Part shown: positions 1-49,888 of the stretch, piece after piece
How the letters are laid out: each line of letters opens with the position of its first letter
Position numbering within the stretch: the first letter of the stretch is position 1
From: Crambe crambe
Taxonomy: Eukaryota > Porifera > Demospongiae > Poecilosclerida > Crambeidae
Assembly (NCBI GenBank): GCA_963924555.1
Contig: OZ004587.1
Coordinates: 5,208,001-5,272,000 of the forward strand
Direction: 5' to 3'
DNA length: 64,000 nt
Program-made: the position numbers and the translations under genes
The notes under the pieces: generated by a model
Seen by the model: only the letters and a program-made list of their open reading frames with translations
Databases searched by the model: none
What the model was told of the DNA's origin: nothing

Positions 1-2
1 AA

Positions 3-82
3 ACTCTTGCAAAAGCAAAAAAAAATTCAGATTAGATAGGGAGCATTGTTGCTCTTTAAACCTAATCTTCATACCAAGAGTA
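3..82 (-). promoter_or_regulatory. SECIS-like element, form II, in the selenoprotein 3' UTR
   Basis: Read on the minus strand: ATGA at 72-69; a perfect 7-bp helix AGATTAG (68-62) with CTAATCT (35-29); then GA at 28-27, completing the non-Watson-Crick quartet. An unpaired AA (57-56) lies 11 nt after ATGA. A mini-stem GAGC (54-51)/GCTC (44-41) closes a six-base loop, as in form II SECIS. Below the quartet, ACTCTTG (82-76) pairs with CAAGAGT (9-3) as helix I, with a long internal loop on the 3' side. It lies downstream of the stop at 149, where a eukaryotic SECIS must be. No folding program was run. Confidence 0.82.
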
Positions 83-148
83 GTGATACTTAGTAGCATG
101 CAAGCTTTAACAAAATTATGACAATAATAAAAGCAGCTGGAATTAAAG

Positions 149-244
149 TTATAGGATGGAGCAGGCGGACTCATAGGCGGTCACTTTCTCAGGTGCATTC
201 CCTTCAGAAATGGATTTAACCTGATCAGCAACCTACAAAATTAA

Positions 245-326
<82 letters not shown>

Positions 327-3280
327 TAAAAGTGAAAACTATTGTGATAGACTCTTGTTATTACATGCCACCATTATTAACAGTCACTTTTTTTGGTAAA
401 TTTGATCATGTGATTTTCAGTGCATTGTCTAACTGACTGCATGTCTAGAAAAAGAGATTTGCTATATTACACTGCACACCTAGTGTGATGTGCTTCTGTT
501 TTTACAGTGCACCAATGTTTCCTCTACTTAGAGGGTATTTAATGGTACACTGTGCCCTGTTTGATGAATAGCCTTTTTTTATTCAGTACAATGATATTGT
601 CGTGATTGTTTACCAGATATTCTGCAGCAGAATCAAAGCTGTATTATAATAGCATGCATGCAGCAATAATTCTAGCAAGCTACGAATTTTATTGCTACAC
701 AAAAGAATTAGTTACCTCTAAAGGTAACTATCGTTAATTCTGATATGATACAAGGTCCATACTTTCACCATTCAAGTCAATGATTGCATGTTATAGGTAA
801 AGGGTCGCAAGAGATAAAAACCACAGTCATACTTTTAGGCAGTTCAAATTAATTTACGGATTTTCCTGCCCTATTTTTGACATTTAAATTTGTATATCCT
901 TTTTGTATACCTTTGTATACCAGAACAATGTTGACCATTATAATTCATAGTATACTGAGATAAACAAGTAGTATTCAAGTTTATGTTGAAGTTTATTTCG
1001 ACCTGCCTTGCCTGAAAGAAAGGTGAAAAAAAATCTGTTAAATAAGCTATTAATTTTTGAACTGCCTTATGACTTTATGTGACATGATAGAGCCATGAAA
1101 TGATTTCGGACGACATTTTAAGGCTATATTAAGTACAGTAAGATTAATGGTAGCTACGTACATACCTTACTAAAGTTTGGAAATCGACAAGTCTCTTGTT
1201 TGGAAAAGATCAGTGTGCCCCCTGCAGTGACCTCAAAGTCCCCGCTCTTCCCGACCACCCCAGTCACCACAGCCGAAGGTACCTTCTTGCGAATGGTCTC
1301 CGCAAGTTGTTCGTACCTCGGCAAGTACCCTCAGGCATTACTGCAAAAAAGGAATTATAGAAAATAAAAAAGATACTGGTAATAATTCACTACGGTATGA
1401 AGAAATAAGAAAGATGGTCAAAATTTAGGTATGAAGAAATAAGAAAGATGGTCAAAATTTAGGTATGAAGAAATAAGAAAGATGGTCAAAATTTAGGTAT
1501 GAAGAAATAAGAAAGATGGTCAAAAATTGTGCCACAAAAAGGAATTTAGGTATAAAGAAATAATATAAATAATGCAATTATACTTTGAATTTGTATAGTA
1601 AAAGAGTAACCCTGTGAGGGTACACTGAACATTTGTACACTAATTGTATGTACTTTGAACTTTCTCCCCATAATGTACTCAGTCAAAATAACAGCCTAAC
1701 AACAAAGTGAACCTATGCTACCTGACCTTTAACCCTCATTACTGCACTCATGAATACAGATAGCCTTTTTACATATTGTTAATTTGTATTTTGGCCTGGA
1801 GCTAAGACCAAAATTAAGTCTTGAAAAGGAACTTTTCCTGGTCACGTGGTCCCCTTTGGACCAGCATACTTCTCCATCTTCGTATCTCCCTCACCCTCAC
1901 CCCAGATATTGTGCACTCCAATCAGGTAATTATAGGTTCTGGCATGTCTAACAACTCTGGTTCAAACTTGTGCAATACCTTTAACCACTGCACTCAAGAA
2001 TATGAACACTAATGTGTTGTTGGAGGTCAAAATATACATGTAGTCATAATTAACAGCCTCAAGGCTTAGTATGTACCTCATGGTTGGTCTAAATAACATT
2101 CCAAACCAGAGAAACATGCTCTCAAGAAACATGAACCCACAATGGCCATCATTATGCTCTCAGGACTTACTCCAACAGAGAGTCACAGGTCTAAAACATG
2201 AACTGTATTCAACCACAATGGAATGAAACCATCATAATGCTCTCAGGACTTACTCCAACAGAGAGTCTCAGGTCTAAAAGGTGAACTGTATTCAACCACA
2301 ATGGCATACAATCATAGACTTTGTGACTCCCTACTAGTATCAATGGTTAATAGGCCATATACTGTAGATTTCAGTTTGGTTGTCAGAAAGGTTAGGGGAA
2401 TAGGTGGATACAGTTTGTCCTATGGTTTACACAACTGCATGGATTGAATAGGACATAAAAGGATTGGGTTTCTTAGGTCCTTGTAAGCCACTACCTATTT
2501 CTCATTCCTTATGGACAACCATCCTGAAATCTACAGTACTCCATGCCTACAAAGGTGGTTATCTAAGTATTCATTATTATAGGTAGCAGAAATTCATATG
2601 GCAAGTCTTGGGGGTATTCCCTTATGAACTTCAGTGAAATGTTTCAAAATTTTAAAGGCTTCTGTGGGATCTTCTTTGGGAGAAGAAACTTTCTTTCTTC
2701 CTATGGTTTTTACACCCTATTTAAATTATGATTAGCCACTGGATGCTACAGTGAAACCTCTGGGGCAGCTGAGAAAGAGAGTGAGTGTGTGTGTGAGAGA
2801 GAGAGAATTAGTCGTCCTTCATGGAGAGGTTGTTTCTATTGTTTGAAGAGGAAAAACCCAACAGTTTGTCCCATGAAGCAATAATAATTATTGTTCTTAT
2901 GATGATGATGAGTCAGATGGCCATTGGGAAAGTCGTTTTATTCAGGTGTTGGCCATCAAAGACCAGAAAGTGGCTTTGACATTGGTTCCTACTATACTAC
3001 TGCCACAAAATGGAGGCTATAGAGGGGGGTGCCAAGATAGTCTCGCGGGCCAGACTCGATTCTTTCCTTTTTCTTGGGAATCGAGTCTGGCCCGCGAGAC
3101 TAGTGCCAAGAATGGCAATGCCAAGTTTATGTACCCAACATTACTTAAGCAGCAGCGTGTAACTAGCTGCATAGTAGTAGCTACTTCATCAGAGATACGT
3201 AGCTATAATGAATAGCTATCTCTCAAGAAGTTATTTAGCTATTCTTACCAATAACTTATCTGGACTTCAACAGCAGACAT
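149..3280 (-). CDS. SELENOW/MIEN1: SelW/MIEN1-type selenoprotein, Sec-containing, 3 exons
   Basis: Exons on the minus strand are 3280-3249, 1340-1166 and 232-149, giving 96 residues. Splice sites are TG|GTAAGA to TTTGCAG|T (phase 2) and AAG|GTATGT to TTTGTAG|GTT (phase 0). Seen: start MSAVEVQISYC, where the Cys codon is split by intron 1, then N-A-TGA-G-Y, so the motif is C11-x-x-U14 if TGA encodes selenocysteine. The Rdx-family core GDFEVTAGGTLIFSK follows, and the protein ends in CSIL, a CaaX prenylation box like that of vertebrate MIEN1. Known for the family: thioredoxin-fold SelW/SelT/Rdx proteins with a CxxU or CxxC redox motif; MIEN1 is prenylated and membrane bound. Inferred: a small redox protein anchored to the inner face of a membrane. 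Length fits the family (about 87-115). A SECIS-like structure lies 67 bases past the stop. The gene is divergently paired with HINFP. An ordinary stop at TGA is the alternative, but exon phases and conserved sequence continue through it. Confidence 0.9.
250..324. repeat. (GA)n microsatellite in selenoprotein intron 2
   Basis: 75 bp of GA dinucleotide. On the transcribed strand it is (CU)n ending about 18 bases before the acceptor of the last selenoprotein exon, so it may act as an extended polypyrimidine tract. Confidence 0.95.
1331..1333 (-). other. In-frame TGA, predicted selenocysteine codon
   Basis: This TGA sits three codons after the split Cys codon, at the place where SelW proteins carry Sec (C-x-x-U). 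The frame stays open for 82 more codons across two exons and keeps Rdx-family residues, so recoding is far more likely than termination. Confidence 0.88.
1394..1526. repeat. 34-bp tandem repeat, about 4 copies
   Basis: Units start at 1394, 1428, 1462 and 1496 and are nearly identical; the last is slightly diverged at its end. It lies in intron 1 of the selenoprotein gene. No coding potential is seen. Confidence 0.93.
2147..2304. repeat. 83-bp tandem duplication
   Basis: The segment beginning at GCTCTCAGGAC recurs at 2156 and 2239 (period 83) with a few substitutions. It is intronic in the selenoprotein gene. Confidence 0.85.
2360..2538. mobile_element. MITE with CTGTAGATTTCAG termini
   Basis: The left end TACTGTAGATTTCAG and the right end CTGAAATCTACAGTA are inverted repeats continuing into GGTTGTC/GACAACC. 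A reverse-complement copy is at 20250-20418, and a decayed right end is near 18433-18463. This shows a mobile family without coding capacity. Confidence 0.75.
3038..3102. mobile_element. 65-bp foldback element with 9-bp target duplication
   Basis: Two perfect 25-bp inverted arms, beginning TAGTCTCGCGGG and ending CCCGCGAGACTA, flank a 15-bp loop. Both sides carry the same 9-mer GTGCCAAGA (3029-3037 and 3103-3111), a clean target-site duplication. Relatives sharing the termini are at 61546-61568 and 63361-63910. Nine-base duplications are typical of Mutator-like transposons; that assignment is inferred. Confidence 0.9.
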
Positions 3281-3507
3281 CGCAAGAGTTATAGGGTTTA
3301 GTCAGTGGTTTTAGTAGACTTGAATCAACAGAGCTTTATGAAATTCGGTGTCTCGATTTCTTTCTGTTTATGACGCAATGATAATGTTGTGCATGCAAGA
3401 ATTAATTAGAAACGCCCACATATCGATATTATGTTGACTCGACGTCATGACGTCACATTCTATTATGCGTCCATTATAGAAGCGCGGGTCGTTTAGAATT
3501 CTTGAAG
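3281..3507. promoter_or_regulatory. Putative bidirectional promoter, selenoprotein / HINFP
   Basis: 227 bp separate the two start codons. At 3441-3455 there is a double CRE/ATF-type motif: GACGTCAT overlapping a perfect TGACGTCA palindrome (3448-3455). No TATA box is evident. Shared control is inferred from the head-to-head layout. Confidence 0.65.
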
Positions 3508-6500
3508 ATGTCAAAGTATGAGCGCCTGCTTGAGCCTCTCTCCTGCTTATGGAAAACGGACTCTGGTGGCCCTGTTTGCGGAGAGCGCTTCCTTGACATG
3601 AAGCTGTTCACAGCTCACGTTAGGAACCAGCATATACCTCAGGATCCTGAGGAAGAAACCGGAGAAGGCAGTCAGGAGATATTGTGTGGATGGAGTGGGT
3701 GTGAGCAGGTGGTAGTAGGGACTTTCAATAAAGATTACATCAGCCATGTCCTCTTCCATCCTTACCACTGTTTTTTGAAGCTCCTTGGCTCGGAATTCCA
3801 GGTGAGTGAGACAAAAATTGGCACTGAGGAGTGGGTGGGAGTTACCATAGCAACCTGAATAATTTCCTTCCTCCATCATTTGCTTGCGTATCTCACATGC
3901 AGGCAAAACTGAAACTTCCGGACTGCCAGTATGAATCTCTCTTCTCAAATGTTGTTCAGCCACTCGAGGTGGAGTCACGATGCCTCTGGGATAATGGACG
4001 TTGCCAGTTGCTATTCGATGACGTCTGGGACTTCTATTCCCATGTCCGGAACCACATCAGGACTGGAGAGGCAGGAAATAGATGCTTATGGGAAGGTGCG
4101 TACAATCATAGGGAAATAGTTTACAGTAGCTAACTTAGAAAGGTTGGAAGTAAGGAATCCTGGTACCATAGGACAGAGATATAGACTTTTAATTATACAG
4201 CCTCTCAACACACACAGGAACACAAAAAAACCACATGCTGAGACAGACACAAATAAACCACATGCTGACAAGACATAAGAGAAAGTGGAATGCACAAATC
4301 AAGGACAATTAATCTACACATACATCATGTTCTGGTCCTTCACAAGAACGAACTTTGTTAGCATTTAGGGATCAGTCCTGATTGGAAAGATATCTTACTT
4401 TGTATAATGTAATAGTGACGGCTCACAGGGTTTGTAATGATTTTTTTAGTGATGCCTGTGATGATGGGTGGATTTGGGGGATTGGTTTGTGCCTTTATAG
4501 GTGTGTCAGATATGGGTATTTACTGCCACCAGCTTTGAGTTTGTCATTGGCCACTTTCCCCCAAACCCCGCCCCGATAACTCCAACCTTATCAATACACA
4601 ACTTTCATTGAGGTATCCCACTACAGTACCCCTTCCTTATGCCTGTCTACTCTCAAAAACTTATCTCCCCTCCCTGCTCCCTCTCTTCTGCCCCAGATTG
4701 TTCCTTTAGTGGACGTGATCGCAACAAAGTATTGGAGCACTCACGAACTCATCTCCAGGAGAAACTGGTAGCATGTCCCACATGTGGCATGAGATTCTCC
4801 AACAATACCAAGTTGAAGGACCACTTGAACCGACAGATAAACCCGTCCAGAGATCCAGAGCTGACATGTAACTTTTGTCACAAGTGTTTCCCCAATGCTA
4901 GACTGCTCAGAGAGCACACCAGGAGACATATCAATAGCATCAAGTGTCCACACTGTGACATGACCTGTCCAGGTGAAAAGAATAGGTTCACTTCATCCCT
5001 TGATTAAAAAACTGCCTCAATTCTTAACCAAATTTTCAAATTTTAAAACCTGCTCATAGAGTGGTGATCAGTTCTCTGCTAGTTGTGAAATTTGTTGGTC
5101 AAGAATTGAGAAAATCATATGATAATGCAAATAGAGATTAGTGTGCGTATGTGTAGCAGGAACTTTTTTTAAAAAATTGGTGTGTGTAAATTTTGTGTTA
5201 AAGATCACGATAATTTCTAAAGCTCAAAGGCTAGGCATTATGTGTGACAGTGCCTAGAAACCAACAGCATCCACACTGTGAAGTTGTCAAAGTGTGTGCC
5301 CTGCAGTGCATAGTCAACTTCTCCCTGTAACTGGTAATGGATACCATCTCTTTCGAGCTACCCAAAGTGCTAATGTTTCTACTACTCATACACACAGTAT
5401 TTATATATAACTACATACATAATGCCATAATGCTCCCTCATCTTTTGTTTTCCCCCATCGTCCATACAGGTCCAGCTCGACTTGTTCAGCATATCCGCTA
5501 TCGCCACGTCTCCAGTAAGTTCCACGAATGTCCCCTCTGCCACAAGACTTACAAGACCACCCAGTCCCTCTCCGCCCACATCAAGGCGCACGGGGAGTAC
5601 CGAATCCCATGCACATGGCCCAATTGTACATTTTTGGCCAAGTCTGAAGCACTTTTGAAGGGTCATAGGAAGGCGGTTCATGACAATATGGAGGGCGAGA
5701 AGCTGTTCTGTTGCCACGTGTGTGATACCAGGTACCCACAAGGCAGGCATCTTACTGCACACCTCAAAAAGATTCATGGATTTGAATTGCCTCCTGGTCA
5801 CTGCCGGTTTAGGTAAAGGAAAATTGTCTAAGCAATGACGTAATATTGTCCCCACCCCTACCAAAGGTCATCATTTATGGATCTATTCAGGCAAAAGAGC
5901 TTTTTCCAGCTCTGCCTCTCTCTCTCTTTCCATCCTGTTTGAAATCCTATCAGTTAGTGATTCAGTCAGGTCATTGGTGAAATTCAGTTCATTATCTCCT
6001 CTATCCTTATTTGAAATCCTGTACATACAGGCAGTACTATAGGAGAAAGGTACCATTTGGAGCAAAATTAAGTATCAGTGATAATCATCGGTATCAGCTT
6101 GCTATCTGAATAGAATTGAAACCAACTTTTTAAAATGGAATTTGGAACCAAGTTCAAATGAATTTGGTTCCCGAGTTGTAACTTGTAAACCAGGCCTCGA
6201 ATGTCCCTTGCATTTTCCACCAGCATTAATAGTGAGGATTGTATACCCTAAATTAGCTAGTTCAAATGGATATTGTTCCTGTAACATAACTTAGGCATGG
6301 GCCTAGTATCAAGAATTAATTCTGAAAAACTTTCTTTGTAGCTGCTAAATTAATACCTTGCATGAAGTCACACAAAAATTGCTAAATTTTGTACCCATAA
6401 AATTAATAGTTAACTGTGTTCTTTGCAGATATGTGCTTGGTAAGGATGGCTTGAAAAGATTACAAACTGTCCGGTTAGATGATGAAAACCTTTACACGCC

Positions 6501-21064: not shown

Positions 21065-22597
21065 TCAAACTGTGAGTGTTAATGCTTTTAACTGCAATTT
21101 GATATCATTTTTTGCTAGTAAAATGAAACCCATTTCCATCTCCACTTTGCAAGTTTCATCCAGAGTGATCTGAAATTCATTGATTATTGTAGCAATGACA
21201 GTCTTCACTTCAATGAGGGCAAAATTCTGTCCGATACAGTTATGATAGCCTGAGGCAAAGGGTATGAAAGCATGAGGATGTCTGCCTTCTGAATTGCTGG
21301 GATTGAAACGAAGAGGGTCATACTCGTTAGGATTCTCCCACGTATCCGGGTGACGGTGAATCAGAAAGGTATTCAGCAAAACAAGCATGCCTTTAGGTAT
21401 CATGTGACCATCAATGTCTCTGTCTTGTGTAGTAGAACGTACGAAATCAGTAGCAGGAGGATAAAGCCTCATGGCTTCTTTTATGCACCAAGTAGTGTAC
21501 TTCAACTTCTTCAAGTCCTCATATTCGAGCCATTCCCTCTCCATTAGCACTTCCCTCACTTCTTCACGGACCTTATCCTGATGTTCAGGATATTTTGCTA
21601 AGCAGTACAGTGTCCAGGAGATCCCACTAGAGGTTGTGTCGTGGCCGGCAAACAAGAAGGTGTCTGTCTCCTCCCTTATCTCCAAATCAGTCAAACCATT
21701 CCCGTCTTCATCACGAGTTGTAAGTAAAACATCCAGCAAATCCAACTTTTTATTGCATTTTCCAGCTCTCTGCTCTGTAATGGCTTCACTCATGGTTCTT
21801 TTCTTTGCAATTTTCAGAGCCTTCTTTCTCTCCCTTATTACTCCTTCAGTGTATTCATGAACCATTTGACAAATCTGTTTAAACTTCCTTCCTTGACATG
21901 TGAAGTTATAGTAGATGAAGTTCAATTTTGTATTACTAAAGATGCTCTGTCGTCGATCAAGCAGTAAAGTCTTCAAAGCTGATACAGAATTGATGTATTG
22001 ATGGCTATCAGAGAGTTGACAGTTACTCTCACTGCTAAATGCACAGCGCATAATGATATCCAAAGTTAATTTGCCTGTATCTTTGAAAGCGAATACTGAT
22101 TCCAAACTGGTTGCTGAGTTTCTCCATTTCTTTATTAAAATTTGTAAGCAGCTATTGAATACAGGGACATAACCACTGAGTATGTCATTATGGAATGCTT
22201 TAGAGAGTAAGTTACGTTTACTCTGCCATTTTGTACCTTCAGCAAGAAATACGCTCTCTCCCACCCAAGGCTTCCAACTCAAATACCATTCAGGTTTCGG
22301 CTCCTTGAGCAGTTTACCAACAGCTTCACAATGAGTGATCCAGATACTTGGATAGGGTCCATTCCAAACCCTTATAACTTTGTGTCTCTTCTCATGGATG
22401 AAGGCTAATAATTTCATCGTTGATGCCTCATCTGGCTTAATCTGGTGGAGATTCCCCTTGGGCCAGTGGGTGGGCATGCCAGGGATGTGCCTCATCGCTC
22501 TCAGTCTCTTGTACACACCCAACAAGGTTTGGGGAATGGAGAACAGGAAGAGGCAAAGGAGCAGGCTCGTTGTGATGATGACACTCAGGACAAACAT
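21065..22597 (-). CDS. Cytochrome P450, CYP4-type, single exon
   Basis: 510 residues in one uninterrupted frame starting at ATG 22597. An N-terminal membrane anchor spans residues 2-22, followed by a basic/proline hinge (MRHIPGMPTHWPKG). The I-helix oxygen-activation motif AGHDTT is at 317-322, ExxR is EAMR (E374, R377), the PERF-like motif is DPLRF, and the heme loop is FASGYHNCIGQNFA with the Cys ligand at 454. Known: CYP4 enzymes are microsomal monooxygenases that hydroxylate fatty acids, often at the omega end. The loop has His452 where most P450s have Arg, though His does occur in some. The length is normal. It ends 250 bp upstream of the ABHD2 start on the same strand. Subfamily and substrate cannot be told from the sequence. 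Confidence 0.95.
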   Translation of the reverse strand: MFVLSVIITTSLLLCLFLFSIPQTLLGVYKRLRAMRHIPGMPTHWPKGNLHQIKPDEASTMKLLAFIHEKRHKVIRVWNGPYPSIWITHCEAVGKLLKEPKPEWYLSWKPWVGESVFLAEGTKWQSKRNLLSKAFHNDILSGYVPVFNSCLQILIKKWRNSATSLESVFAFKDTGKLTLDIIMRCAFSSESNCQLSDSHQYINSVSALKTLLLDRRQSIFSNTKLNFIYYNFTCQGRKFKQICQMVHEYTEGVIRERKKALKIAKKRTMSEAITEQRAGKCNKKLDLLDVLLTTRDEDGNGLTDLEIREETDTFLFAGHDTTSSGISWTLYCLAKYPEHQDKVREEVREVLMEREWLEYEDLKKLKYTTWCIKEAMRLYPPATDFVRSTTQDRDIDGHMIPKGMLVLLNTFLIHRHPDTWENPNEYDPLRFNPSNSEGRHPHAFIPFASGYHNCIGQNFALIEVKTVIATIINEFQITLDETCKVEMEMGFILLAKNDIKLQLKALTLTV

Positions 22598-22926
22598 TTC
22601 AGCAAGTAGCTAGCTAGCTAGCTATAATATTATGGACACTGGACTAATCCTCCAGAAAGAATATTCTTATAGCTGGAGATTTGCTTGAAGTAGCTTCAGT
22701 AGCTAGCTCTATTCTGTAGCTGGTAGATATAGCTGCTATTATAGTTACAGAGATAGTAAAGAACTAAAAGTACATATCTGCATATATATAGCTAACTCTA
22801 TTACGTGCATGCTTATTATAATGTAATGGTAGTGACATCAAGTGAAGGAAGCTCATAATGTAGTGACATCAAGCTCATTGTTAAGGGTTAAATAATACAT
22901 GCATGTACAAAAAGTTAAACCCACAT

Positions 22927-28403: not shown

Positions 28404-31040
28404 CGTTAAAGCTGTTACTCCATCACGAATATTAATTATATAGCCTAAACAATCCTCCGGCACTTGATTTGTTGATACAAGTTGAAAATACTTTATGGAA
28501 ACAAAGACTCCCAAAATACTGCTTGCCACACATCCTAAAAAGATCACTACCATATGAGGAATTATCTTAAAAAAAATTACAAGCAACAAATTACAGGCCA
28601 CTTTAAAAATAGTATAGCTAATAATAATTGTAATGAAAATACTGACAGGTTCTACAGCTTCAATTCTTCCTCAGACATAATCTAACTAGAGGTTGGACTA
28701 CTTCAGTAGCCATTTCCTACTTATTATTATTATAGCTACTGTATTTTTCCCCGTGCTACTTAAGGAACTGACTGGCAAGAGCTGCTGGTACATATTCATG
28801 CTTACCAAAAATATGAAAACATCTTGAGGAGCCTTTTTAAAGCAGGAGGAAACTTTATTTAGAGCAAATACTATGAACCCAAGTATCACAATGGCCAGAG
28901 TGAGTGTCTGGATATTGTCAGAGCCATGAATCTTATAGATTTGAACCCAATCATCAGCACTTGGATTGTATAGATTCACAATGATGAAGGTACAGAGAAT
29001 AGCACATGCTACGCCATTCAGAATCGTGAAGAAAAACTGTAAAAGAATATAAATTTCATTCATGAACATGCCTTGTTATAGTGTTCCTCTACAAAATCAA
29101 GTTTCATTCAAAGGTACAAATAAAACAACACATATACAAAGAACAATGATGCCATACTATCTCTACTACCTACAGGTATACATATCCCTATCCTCTAGAA
29201 GATGTTAGTACATATGTGCTCTTGAAGATGTGCTCTTGAAGATGTTGAAGATGTTACTGTAGCTACCTATTAAAGATGTTATTATGTTACCCAATACTGT
29301 CTCTTCACTCTAATCACCTTCTAAAGAGAGAAGTGTCACTAGAATTTGATTGAATACATTTGATACATATGCATTATAATTATGACTAAGGTGTGAGTGT
29401 GAATTATAATCTGATTAGTCAGGAAAAGAAATGAGCAGGGGGTATTCACATCATTTATTGCTTAGCAACCAGGGGAATTTTCCATTTCTTGTGTGTGCCG
29501 GATAGTAAAACCACAGTTAATTACAAGCCTACTGTAGTAGGATGGTGTTACTACTTGTTGCTGGAACTTTAGGAACAAGTTAGTCTTTTTAAAAGACTAT
29601 AGGAATGCCTTAAACTTTCTGCATTGAATAACATGGCTTAGGTTGCTGTTCAATGCTTTCGAACTGCCGTTTATTCTCATGCATAGTTTGATTAAAGCAT
29701 GTCTACAGGATTCTCTCATTGTTTGGAAGCCTCAAAGTCTTAGTTACCATGGCTCTCTCTTAGGCACTTTAGGAATAATGCTTCATAATTATGTCTAACC
29801 ATAATAACGAAGAGGTACAAGAGAATAAGTACATGCCCTGAAAGTTTATGAAAGTGAAATTCCTTGGGTCAGCACTCTTCAAGTATATAAGTGATTTTGT
29901 CACAGAAAACAGTGGAGCCTCTGATAAAGGACACACTGTATTTGACAGATAAACTTCAATGTCCCACTAAAGAGGACAACCTTCCTATAACGGAAAATCA
30001 ATGTGTCCTAAGCAGTGGCAGAGATTTTCTAAAGGGTACTTCTTATTAGTGGGTGTCCCACTACCACTCCTATAACCACACCCATTTTTATATTTTTCAT
30101 TGCAAATGCTGTCAGGGCTGGATCCAGGGTGGGAGTGAGGGGGTTGCAACCCCCCCCCCCCCCTCCCTCCCCCCTTTTGTTCCCAAGCTAAGCCTGTAGA
30201 TAAAATAATACACTATTATAGTTAATGCAATTAATTTTGACCATGCCTACCGTAGCTACCTATTTTTCTTGTGTTTCTGTTCTAAAGTAGTAGCTATAAT
30301 TAGAGGAACACATAATATTATGAGCTAACTTAACCAATGTGATTACTACAGCCATCATCATCTAAGGCTATGGTCAAGAAAGAAATGGTCTATGTGTATC
30401 CATTTAGGCTCGCACTTTCAAGGTCACTCAGTGCATACTGACTAACTGAGACTTCCTTAAAAATTACACCTATGATCTTGCATGTGTCACTTTAAAGATA
30501 TCTTTCGGAGCAGTGGCTTTCATTTTCAAGGTCACACATTAGATAACTCAGTGCATACTAACTGTGATTTCCTTCATGAACACCTGTGACCTTGCATGTG
30601 TCACTTCAGAGTTTGAGTGTAATAGCTAGCTAGCAATTTTTGAGATGGTTCACGCCTTTGCCTATACTCATGCTGTCATAATATAATGCACACAAATATG
30701 TGCTAGGGAGATTTTTTGGACTTCTTGGATCCAATTTGTACATTATGAAGCAAAAAATTAATGATAAATGCTCAAAAAGTGGCAGCCTGCAAGTGAAGCC
30801 AACATGGATCCTTCTTTCTTGCAGGGCCCAGTGTGTACACTCCTAGTCCTGCAACCCCACCTAGCTATCTAAAAATCCTGCGGCTGTGCTAAATTTTAAG
30901 ATGTGAATTATGATGGGTACTTCTTAAGAAGTAAAAAAAACTCCCTAAATCCGCCACTGCCTAAGGTTCCACCATGCAAATAGACTCACCAAAAGCATTA
31001 CACATAGATTAAAAGTTTTAAAAGTTCTATCACCATCCAT
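28404..31040 (-). CDS. Multi-pass membrane protein of unknown family, paralogue 1
   Basis: Exons 31040-30990, 29036-28806 and 28565-28404 join in phase 0 (TTG|GTGAGT, TTTTACAG|TTT, TTG|GTAAGC, TTTTTTTAAG|ATA, ACG|GTAAGT), giving at least 148 residues. A short N-tail (MDGDRTFK) precedes TM1 at about 15-40, a loop with NPSADDWVQI, TM2 at about 61-80, a Cys/Lys loop, and TM3 at about 95-121 before a conserved STNQVPED...NIRDGVTALT segment. A perfect donor after ACG means at least one more exon. A short candidate (TCT GCA AAT AAA TTT TAA near 27987-27970, conserved in block 3) has a poor acceptor. Alternatively the frame may run 7 codons past the donor to a stop. I do not recognise the family. 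Conservation of all exon borders in three copies supports real genes. Intron 1 carries the MITE at 30013-30959. Confidence 0.7.
30013..30959. mobile_element. CAGTGGCAGA MITE with internal insertion, in intron 1 of paralogue 1
   Basis: Ends CAGTGGCAGAG and CCGCCACTG are flanked by CCTAAG on both sides (30007-30012, 30960-30965). The equivalent intron in block 3 (about 49800) lacks it. Inside, from about 30115, another element begins GGCTGGATCCAGGGTGGGAG, with a poly-C tract at 30150-30172 and sequence matching 15538-15630. Confidence 0.75.
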
Positions 31041-42048: not shown

Positions 42049-42921
42049 CGTGAAAGCTGTTATTCCATCACGAATATTTATTACATAGCCTAAACTATCC
42101 TCCGGCACTCGATTTGTTGATACAAGTTGAAAATACTCTATGGAAACAAAGAGTCCAAAAATACTGCATGCCAAACATCCCAAGAAGACCACTACCATAT
42201 AAGGAATCATCTAAAAAAATTAAAAGCAACAAATTACAGGCCTGTATGGTACGTATAATAATGACTGTATGAAATTCTGACAGGTTCTATTCTTCCTCAG
42301 ACATAATCTAACTAACTAGAGGTTGGACTACTTCAGTGCTCTGGGTAGCCATTTCCTATACATAGCTATAATTATTATACTGTAGTATTTTTTCCGTGCT
42401 ATATAAAGAACTGATTAGCAAGAGCTGGTGCATATTCATGCTTACCAAAATTATATAAACCTCATGAGGCGCATTTTCAAGGAAGGAGCATTTAGAGCAG
42501 GTGGAAAGTTCCTTTAGAGCAGATATTACGTACCCGAGTATCACAATGCCCAGTGTGAGTGTCCTGAACTTATCAGAGTCAAGGATTTCATGGATTTGAA
42601 ACCAATCATCAGCACTCACATTGAATAGATTCACAATGATGAAAGTAATGAGAATAATACATGCTAAACCATCCAGTAACATGAAGACAATCTGTAAAAG
42701 AATATAAATCTCATTCATGAACACATGCCTTAATTGTTATAGTGTTCCTCAACGAAACCAAGTTTCATTCAAAGGTACGTACAAAGACAACAATGATGCC
42801 ATACTATCCCTACTACCTTACAGGTATACATAGATGGACCATGGACCATAGACCATGCAAATAGACTCACCAAACAGATTAAATATTTAAATAGAGAATT
42901 AGAAGTATTATCATTTTCCAT
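42049..42921 (-). CDS. Multi-pass membrane protein of unknown family, paralogue 2
   Basis: Exons 42921-42871, 42691-42446 and 42210-42049, all phase 0, at least 153 residues. Same plan as paralogue 1: N-tail MENDNTSNSLFKYLICL, TM1 starting IVFMLLDGLACIILITF, the SADDW loop, TM2, a Cys loop five residues longer (CSKCSFLENAPHE), TM3 and STNRVPEDSLGYVINIRDGITAFT. Introns are much shorter (179 and 235 bp) than in paralogue 1, which may be closer to the original gene. The exon after the last donor (ACG|GTAAGT) is not found; the DNA beyond 41880 differs from the other blocks. Confidence 0.7.
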
Positions 42922-48418: not shown

Positions 48419-49888
48419 CGTTAAAGCTGTTACTCCATCACGAATATTTATTATAGAGCTTAAATTATCCTCCGGCACTTGATTTGTTGATACAAGTTGA
48501 AAATACTTTATGGAAACAAAGACTCCCAAAATGCTGCTTGCCAAACATCCCAAAACGATCACTACCATAATAGGAATTACCTAAAAAAATAATAATAATA
48601 AAAATTACAAGCAACAAATTACAGGCCACTTTAAAAATAGTATAGTATAATAATGATTGTAATGAAAATACTGACAGGTTCTACAGCTTCAATTCTTAGT
48701 TAATAATAATAAATTCTTAATAATTCAATTCAATAAATTCAATTCTTAATAATAATAAATTTAGCTAATACTGTAGTATTTTTTACTGTGCTACATAAGG
48801 AACTGACTAGCAAGAGCTGGTACATATTCGTGCTTACCACACATGTAAAAACTGTTGGAGGAGCCTTTTTAAAGCAGGTGGCAATTTTATTTACAGCAAA
48901 TATTATGTACCCAAGTATCACAATGGCCAGAGTGAGTGTCTTGATATTGTCAGAGCCAGGAATCTCACGGATTTGAACCCAATCATCATCAGTTGGATTG
49001 TATAGATTCACAATGATGAAGGTACAGAGAATAGCACATGCTACGCCATTCAGAACCGTGAAGAAAAACTGTAAAAGAATATAAATTTCATTCATGCTTG
49101 TTACAGTGTTCCTCTACAAAATCAAGTTTCATTCAAAGGTACAAAAACAACACATATAAAAGATAACAATGATGCCATACAATCTGCTTTTAAATGCTTT
49201 CGAACTGCCATTTTGAATTGTTATTCTCATGCATAGCTTGATTGAAGTAGCTATGTGTACTGGATTCTCTCATTGTTTGGAAGCCTCAAAGTCTTAGTTA
49301 CGAGATTCTCCTTCACTATGGGTCTCTCTTAGGTACTTTAGGAATAATGTCTAACCATAACAAGGAAGAGGTACAAGAGAATAAGAACACCCTGAAAGTT
49401 TATGAAAGTGAAATTCCTTGGGTCAGCTACGTAGCACTCTTCAAGTATATAAAAGTGATTTTGTTACGAAAAGATGGAGCCTCTGATAAAGGACACTCTA
49501 AATATAAATTCCAAGGTCCCACTAAAGAGGATAACCTCCCAGGGTTCTGCCCAGAATTCTTGAGTGGTGGCCGAAATTAATTTTGCCCATGCCCACTTCA
49601 GAAGACTATGTTCATTTAGGGGTGTCCCTTTGAATGATCAAAACCATCACTGATATGTTATACAAGCCTAAAGTTACTACAGCTAAGTGTAACAAGTGGT
49701 GGCCAAAATAGCCAAGTGGTGGCCAAAATGGCCACTGTTGACCAGTGTGGGCAGAACCCTGCCCTCCTTATATCTTATTAACAGAAAATCAATGTGTCCT
49801 TTATTTGGAGGTTCCACTATGCAAATAGACTCACCACACAGAGTACAAATTTATCTAGAGAAGAATATTCTTTATCACCACCATCCAT
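48419..49888 (-). CDS. Multi-pass membrane protein of unknown family, paralogue 3
   Basis: Exons 49888-49835, 49068-48838 and 48580-48419, all phase 0, at least 149 residues. N-tail MDGGDKEYSSLDKFVLCV, then TM1 (FFFTVLNGVACAILCTF), NPTDDDWVQI loop, TM2, CFKKAPPTVFTCV, TM3 from VIPIMVVIVLG, and STNQVPEDNLSSIINIRDGVTALT. Substitutions relative to paralogues 1 and 2 keep all splice sites, the hydrophobic segments and the DDW and VPED motifs. A short conserved candidate last exon (TCT GAA AAT GAA TTT TAA, about 47987-47970) follows ACTACAG, but its acceptor lacks a pyrimidine tract. Function unknown. Confidence 0.7.
49541..49760. mobile_element. MITE with AGGGTTCTGCCCA ends, intron 1 of paralogue 3
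   Basis: AGGGTTCTGCCCAGAA and GTGGGCAGAACCCT are inverted. Block 1 lacks it at the same place (after GAGGACAACC at about 29970). A one-ended relative is at 16665 (AGGGTTCTGCCCACACTGG). Confidence 0.8.

Follow-up and report, generated by a model that had tools for sequence, protein, structure and literature searches.

SelW2 has been described as a selenoprotein that occurs in bony fishes, in frog and in elephant shark. The same study regards Rdx12 (MIEN1), found in tetrapods, as a distant Cys homologue that its authors derive from a duplication of SelW2, and its accessible text also calls parts of its own tree confused (PMC3316567). Rdx12 is listed as well among the mammalian Cys homologues of fish selenoproteins, as far as the accessible part of that report goes (PMC2397514). 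From the portions of the invertebrate surveys that are at hand, SelW2 occurs in the flatworms Schmidtea and Schistosoma and in Trichoplax (PMC3828610), a Ciona gene is labelled SelW2, which perhaps means only that it is the second SelW (PMC2874816), and the sponge Amphimedon has one SelW (PMC3473315). Human MIEN1, according to the accessible text of two reports, carries a C-terminal CVIL and undergoes geranylgeranylation at the membrane (PMC3527542, PMC6738349). The words 'caax' and 'prenyl' occur nowhere in the main text of PMC3316567, nor does 'prenyl' in PMC3828610, and no discussion of a CaaX box on the Sec form was found in the open-access literature, which was covered mostly as titles and abstracts and leaves subscription journals mostly outside.

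A Sec-containing MIEN1-type protein is already known, and it is the pairing of Sec with a CaaX box that is the point worth following. The gene that we describe here, whose predicted protein carries both, lies in a stretch of 64,000 nucleotides from the sponge Crambe crambe (hereafter the window). It shares with SelW2 of fishes, frog, elephant shark and invertebrates a Sec in C-x-x-U, a grouping apart from SelW1 and a Cys relative in Rdx12/MIEN1, a likeness drawn from the accessible descriptions of SelW2 and not from its sequences, and it differs in its CaaX box, which those descriptions do not discuss. We presume that fish SelW2 may likewise end in such a box.

Gene anatomy and the candidate SECIS element

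The gene occupies window positions 149-3280 on the minus strand, and the model put forward in the initial annotation, which had been made from the DNA letters and their open reading frames, proved exact to the base once minus-strand splicing was applied. Coding exon 1 (3249..3280, 32 nt) begins with an ATG that has an in-frame stop 24 nt 5' of it, at 3304, encodes MSAVEVQISY plus the TG of Cys11, and ends at a GT donor; coding exon 2 (1166..1340, 175 nt) holds the Rdx core, and coding exon 3 (149..232, 84 nt) encodes a MIEN1-like tail followed by the stop codon TAA (151-149). Both introns are GT-AG. Intron 1 (1341..3248, GTAAGA...TTGCAG) is in phase 2 and divides the active-site Cys codon as TG|T (3250-3249 / 1340), just as had been claimed, while intron 2 (233..1165, GTATGT...TTGTAG) is in phase 0 and holds a (GA)n run. 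The junctions themselves are predicted from genomic DNA. Joined, the three exons form a frame of 291 nt with 96 residues and one in-frame TGA, at codon 14 (1331..1333), the protein reading MSAVEVQISYCNAUGYLPRYEQLAETIRKKVPSAVVTGVVGKSGDFEVTAGGTLIFSKQETCRFPNFSKVADQVKSISEGNAPEKVTAYESACSIL. The two features on which the initial annotation had dwelt, i.e. a C-x-x-U motif and a C-terminal CSIL box, are both present in this spliced translation: the redox motif is C11-N-A-U14, whose proposed Sec14 aligns with the second Cys of the MIEN1 CxxC, and the CaaX box (152..163) aligns with CVIL of MIEN1. As regards membership of the eukaryotic selenoproteins, the in-frame TGA sits at the catalytic position of the protein. 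Because their exons are short, a Cys codon is split and a stop is recoded, genes of this kind escape ordinary gene callers.

Intron 1 also contains a near-perfect hairpin (3036-3104) that is repeated in the genome, with at least 73 matches among the 40 of 144 candidates that were scored, many of which pair up as opposite strands or as halves of a single locus. It has a sub-threshold match to mir-5879 on both strands in Rfam, and is probably a small inverted-repeat element.

A SECIS-like stem-loop (27..72, minus strand), which was absent from the initial annotation, begins 76 nt past the stop codon and, by pattern and fold, consists of AUGA, a 9-bp helix, AAA, a mini-hairpin (GAGCA-ACAA-UGCUC) and GA. 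A strict SECIS pattern, fixed only after this candidate had been seen, has one match on both strands of the 64-kb window, which is the 3' hairpin of this very gene, and 6 matches in 6,000,000 nt, on one strand, of sequence simulated with the same dinucleotide make-up. A looser rule is not specific, since it gave 7 matches in the window versus 0, 0, 0, 1, 1, 1, 1, 1, 2 and 3 in ten simulated windows. The Rfam SECIS model returned no match at its gathering score, none at E<=5 in bases 1-3500 and none at E<=10 in bases 1-150. Around the GPx, Sep15-like and SelW1 genes of the same genome (for SelW1, up to 1.6 kb past the stop), SECIS scans turned up no convincing candidate, and the scan is therefore not validated as a detector for this genome; folding two stretches chosen by eye from the 3' flank of SelW1 gave no clear SECIS result either.

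Placement among MIEN1 and SelW proteins

With 65.1 bits against Pfam Rdx PF10262 (cut-off 22.6), the protein belongs where the initial annotation had put it, in the SelW/Rdx family; it also scores 57.1 bits against NCBIfam TIGR02174 (cut-off 34.2), and 74.4 against NF041051, which is below the cut-off of 88. Alignment to SELENOW and MIEN1, which the initial annotation had named as a check, finds human MIEN1 (2ljk) as the best solved relative (E 1e-12, 51.5 bits, residues 2-96), followed by mouse SelW (2npb; E 1e-6, 32.3 bits, residues 3-63) and then by bacterial chains. The alignment with MIEN1 is free of gaps, with 30 of 95 residues identical. In the core, compared over shared columns, the protein is about equally distant from both, with 23 of 61 residues identical to mouse SelW and 20 of 62 to MIEN1. 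It is the tail that is telling, as its last 23 residues align with MIEN1 without gaps and with 8 of 23 identical, a result equalled by none of 20000 shuffles; when the CaaX box is left out, 10 of 20000 shuffles do as well, or 121 of 20000 if the best among 13 offsets may be chosen. The CaaX box therefore most likely belongs to a homologous MIEN1-type tail, as judged from these alignments. Human MIEN1 (Rdx12, C17orf37) shares with the window gene an Rdx core that lacks the SelW insertion, an EK[VI]T tail and a CaaX box ending in Leu, but has Cys in place of Sec and ~20 additional N-terminal residues. SELENOW/SelW1, i.e. the mouse protein and the SelW1 of this genome, has in common with it the Rdx core with C-x-x-U, but contains an additional stretch around GExTPxxTG that the window gene is missing. 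Since the core alone is about equal, the placement in the MIEN1 branch comes from the missing SelW insertion and the MIEN1-like tail.

The whole genome was searched as the 143-Mb assembly of 119 contigs that contains the window. Its own SelW1 (C13:5477381-5477878) has five exons with GT-AG introns and encodes 84 residues with C-G-G-U, where the U is again a TGA, and with neither CaaX box nor tail; it scores 60.9 bits against Pfam Rdx, and 82 bits with mouse SelW versus 32.1 bits with MIEN1. Within a single animal genome there is a tailless SelW1 alongside a MIEN1-type selenoprotein that ends in a CaaX tail. In the Cys codon of C-x-x-U, intron 1 of SelW1 has the same position and the same phase 2 as intron 1 of the window gene, and the split Cys codon therefore looks like an old feature of the family and not like a peculiarity of one gene. 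The Rdx family search of the genome at E<=1 returned four places, which are the window gene, SelW1 and two weak matches (L007 and L008), and the search with the window protein recovered only exons 2 and 3 of its own gene.

Selenocysteine and prenylation machinery and the proposed function

The genome contains a tRNA-Sec match of 71.6 bits (cut-off 47) that has the anticodon UCA and is also called tRNA-Sec by ARAGORN; the same search had matches in 14 of 14 control genomes, above the cut-off in 5. A GPx exon that scores above the cut-off for its family has a TGA at the Sec site, where it reads NVASQUGLA, and a VCGUKLGRYPQIQ stretch, at 18.6 bits below the Sep15_SelM cut-off of 26, is found ~500 bases ahead of a 35.5-bit match. 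Going by the motifs of their families, the TGA codons of the GPx and Sep15-like genes are probably Sec sites. For prenylation, prenyltransferase-beta is matched at three places, in 9 match rows, and ICMT with 117.7 bits. Three AhpC-like exons with two in-frame TGA each, reading U-x-x-U (L059 at C16:6623247, L061 at C14:7129231 and L064 at C20:2648804), of which two are above the family cut-off, are candidate SelL-like selenoproteins. Among 30 of the 121 Peptidase_C1 places in the genome, 21 loci, a few of which overlap, have an active-site motif of the Cys type and 9 have no motif, and no silicatein-like one was seen among these 30.

How the protein might work can be sketched from these parts. 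The UGA at codon 14 would be decoded as Sec by means of the putative 3'UTR SECIS element and tRNA-Sec, and Sec14 would provide a thioredoxin-like C-x-x-U centre with a presumed redox role. Owing to the Leu at the X position of CSIL, the tail is expected to be geranylgeranylated by GGTase-I, in line with what is reported for human MIEN1 and its CVIL, and it would then be trimmed and methylated, as is general for CaaX proteins, so that the lipid would hold the redox centre at the cytosolic face of a membrane. The UGA lies 165 nt ahead of the exon 2/3 junction, and failed Sec insertion should therefore expose the mRNA to nonsense-mediated decay, through which expression of the gene would come to depend on selenium. 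As a naturally occurring Sec version of a membrane protein associated with cancer in humans, it could be used for asking what the change from Sec to Cys did.

Alternative explanations and genomic surroundings

In our view the window gene very probably encodes a functional selenoprotein from the MIEN1/SelW2 branch of the Rdx family. Counted in favour of this are the gene model, the SECIS-like fold, the Rdx score, the higher score with MIEN1 than with SelW, the MIEN1-like tail, tRNA-Sec, the TGA in the GPx exon, the separate SelW1, the prenyltransferase-beta and ICMT matches, and the published accounts of Sec SelW2 and prenylated MIEN1; counted against it are the lack of an Rfam SECIS match, the unspecific looser SECIS rule, scans that gave no convincing element near the GPx, Sep15-like and SelW1 genes, a core about equally distant from SelW and MIEN1, and a bacteria-rooted tree that does not join the gene to MIEN1. 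A DNA search found three damaged, incomplete copies of exons 2 and 3 elsewhere in the genome, one on C10 ~20 kb away and two on C6, and these raise the question of whether the window gene might itself be a decaying copy, in which the TGA is a plain stop. This is the least credible of the readings, and hardly to be believed, because the frame and splice sites of the gene are intact, its TGA coincides exactly with the place of Sec and it is followed by a SECIS-like element, whereas the partial copies have indels in both exons and their resemblance to the gene ends shortly past the stop codon, before the hairpin. No exon 1 was found in any of the three. By their sequences they look like decayed duplicates within larger repeated segments: decayed pieces of the gene are seen in repeated segments of ~4.5 kb (L010, L011 and L012), and the C10 copy is 97% identical to the copy at C6:4643001.

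Scarcely better founded is the view that the gene is simply a SelW1 (SELENOW) orthologue which acquired its CaaX-like ending independently. Its core is slightly more identical to mouse SelW, and C-N-A-U-G-Y resembles SelW, but the genome has a separate SelW1, complete with the GExTPxxTG stretch and devoid of a CaaX box, the alignment with MIEN1 is gap-free and the tail is similar upstream of the box too. Trees, for which 200 bootstraps were run, argue in the same direction, since unrooted four-protein trees set the window gene and MIEN1 against SelW1 and mouse SelW, with 97% for the core and 100% with tails. Rather than combining traits taken from SelW and from MIEN1, the gene most likely represents the MIEN1 branch in its Sec form, which has been published under the name SelW2. 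Rooting with four bacterial outgroup chains, in a set of eight short sequences, again groups SelW1 with mouse SelW at 97%, but lets the window gene branch ahead of MIEN1 and the SelW pair, at 66% only. Such a branching order, like the first intron common to the window gene and SelW1, would suit a scenario in which the animal SelW family as a whole started out with Sec plus CaaX and SelW1 lost its tail later. We find that scenario unlikely, although clearly less so than the two preceding ones, as 66% among eight short sequences is weak support, distant outgroups can pull the root, and algae are known to have proteins of the SelW1 type that lack CaaX.

The initial annotation had suggested that a lineage keeping both traits may show the ancestral state of the Rdx family. 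For an undivided SELENOW/MIEN1 ancestor this finds no support, because the genome has its own SelW1 and the unrooted trees split the two; what stands is that the combination of Sec and CaaX may be the original condition in the MIEN1 branch. Going one step further, we give about even chances to the idea that the MIEN1 branch united a redox centre based on Sec with a geranylgeranyl tail from early in animal evolution, and that mammals kept the anchor but exchanged Sec for Cys. Whether Sec and a lipid anchor were paired early in the family is a question that wider sampling makes testable. Outside animals, phage records gave no match at E<=1, and of the stretches that fit a peptide pattern, 7 in viral contigs and 199 in prokaryote genome contigs, none encodes a relative at E<=1e-3, in single-protein scans whose reach is limited to close relatives.

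The surroundings of the gene deserve a few words. A probable zinc-finger gene (3508-5816, plus strand) stands head to head with it, with 227 nt between the two ATGs; its open frame at 5331-5816 (plus strand) has a C2H2 match, and it may resemble HINFP. Further along, on the minus strand, there are three open frames of ~125 codons (28698-29075, 42356-42736 and 48739-49113), alike by eye and with hydrophobic stretches, which have no Pfam match at E 0.001, and an open frame of 514 codons (21065-22609) with a cytochrome P450 match of 346 bits.
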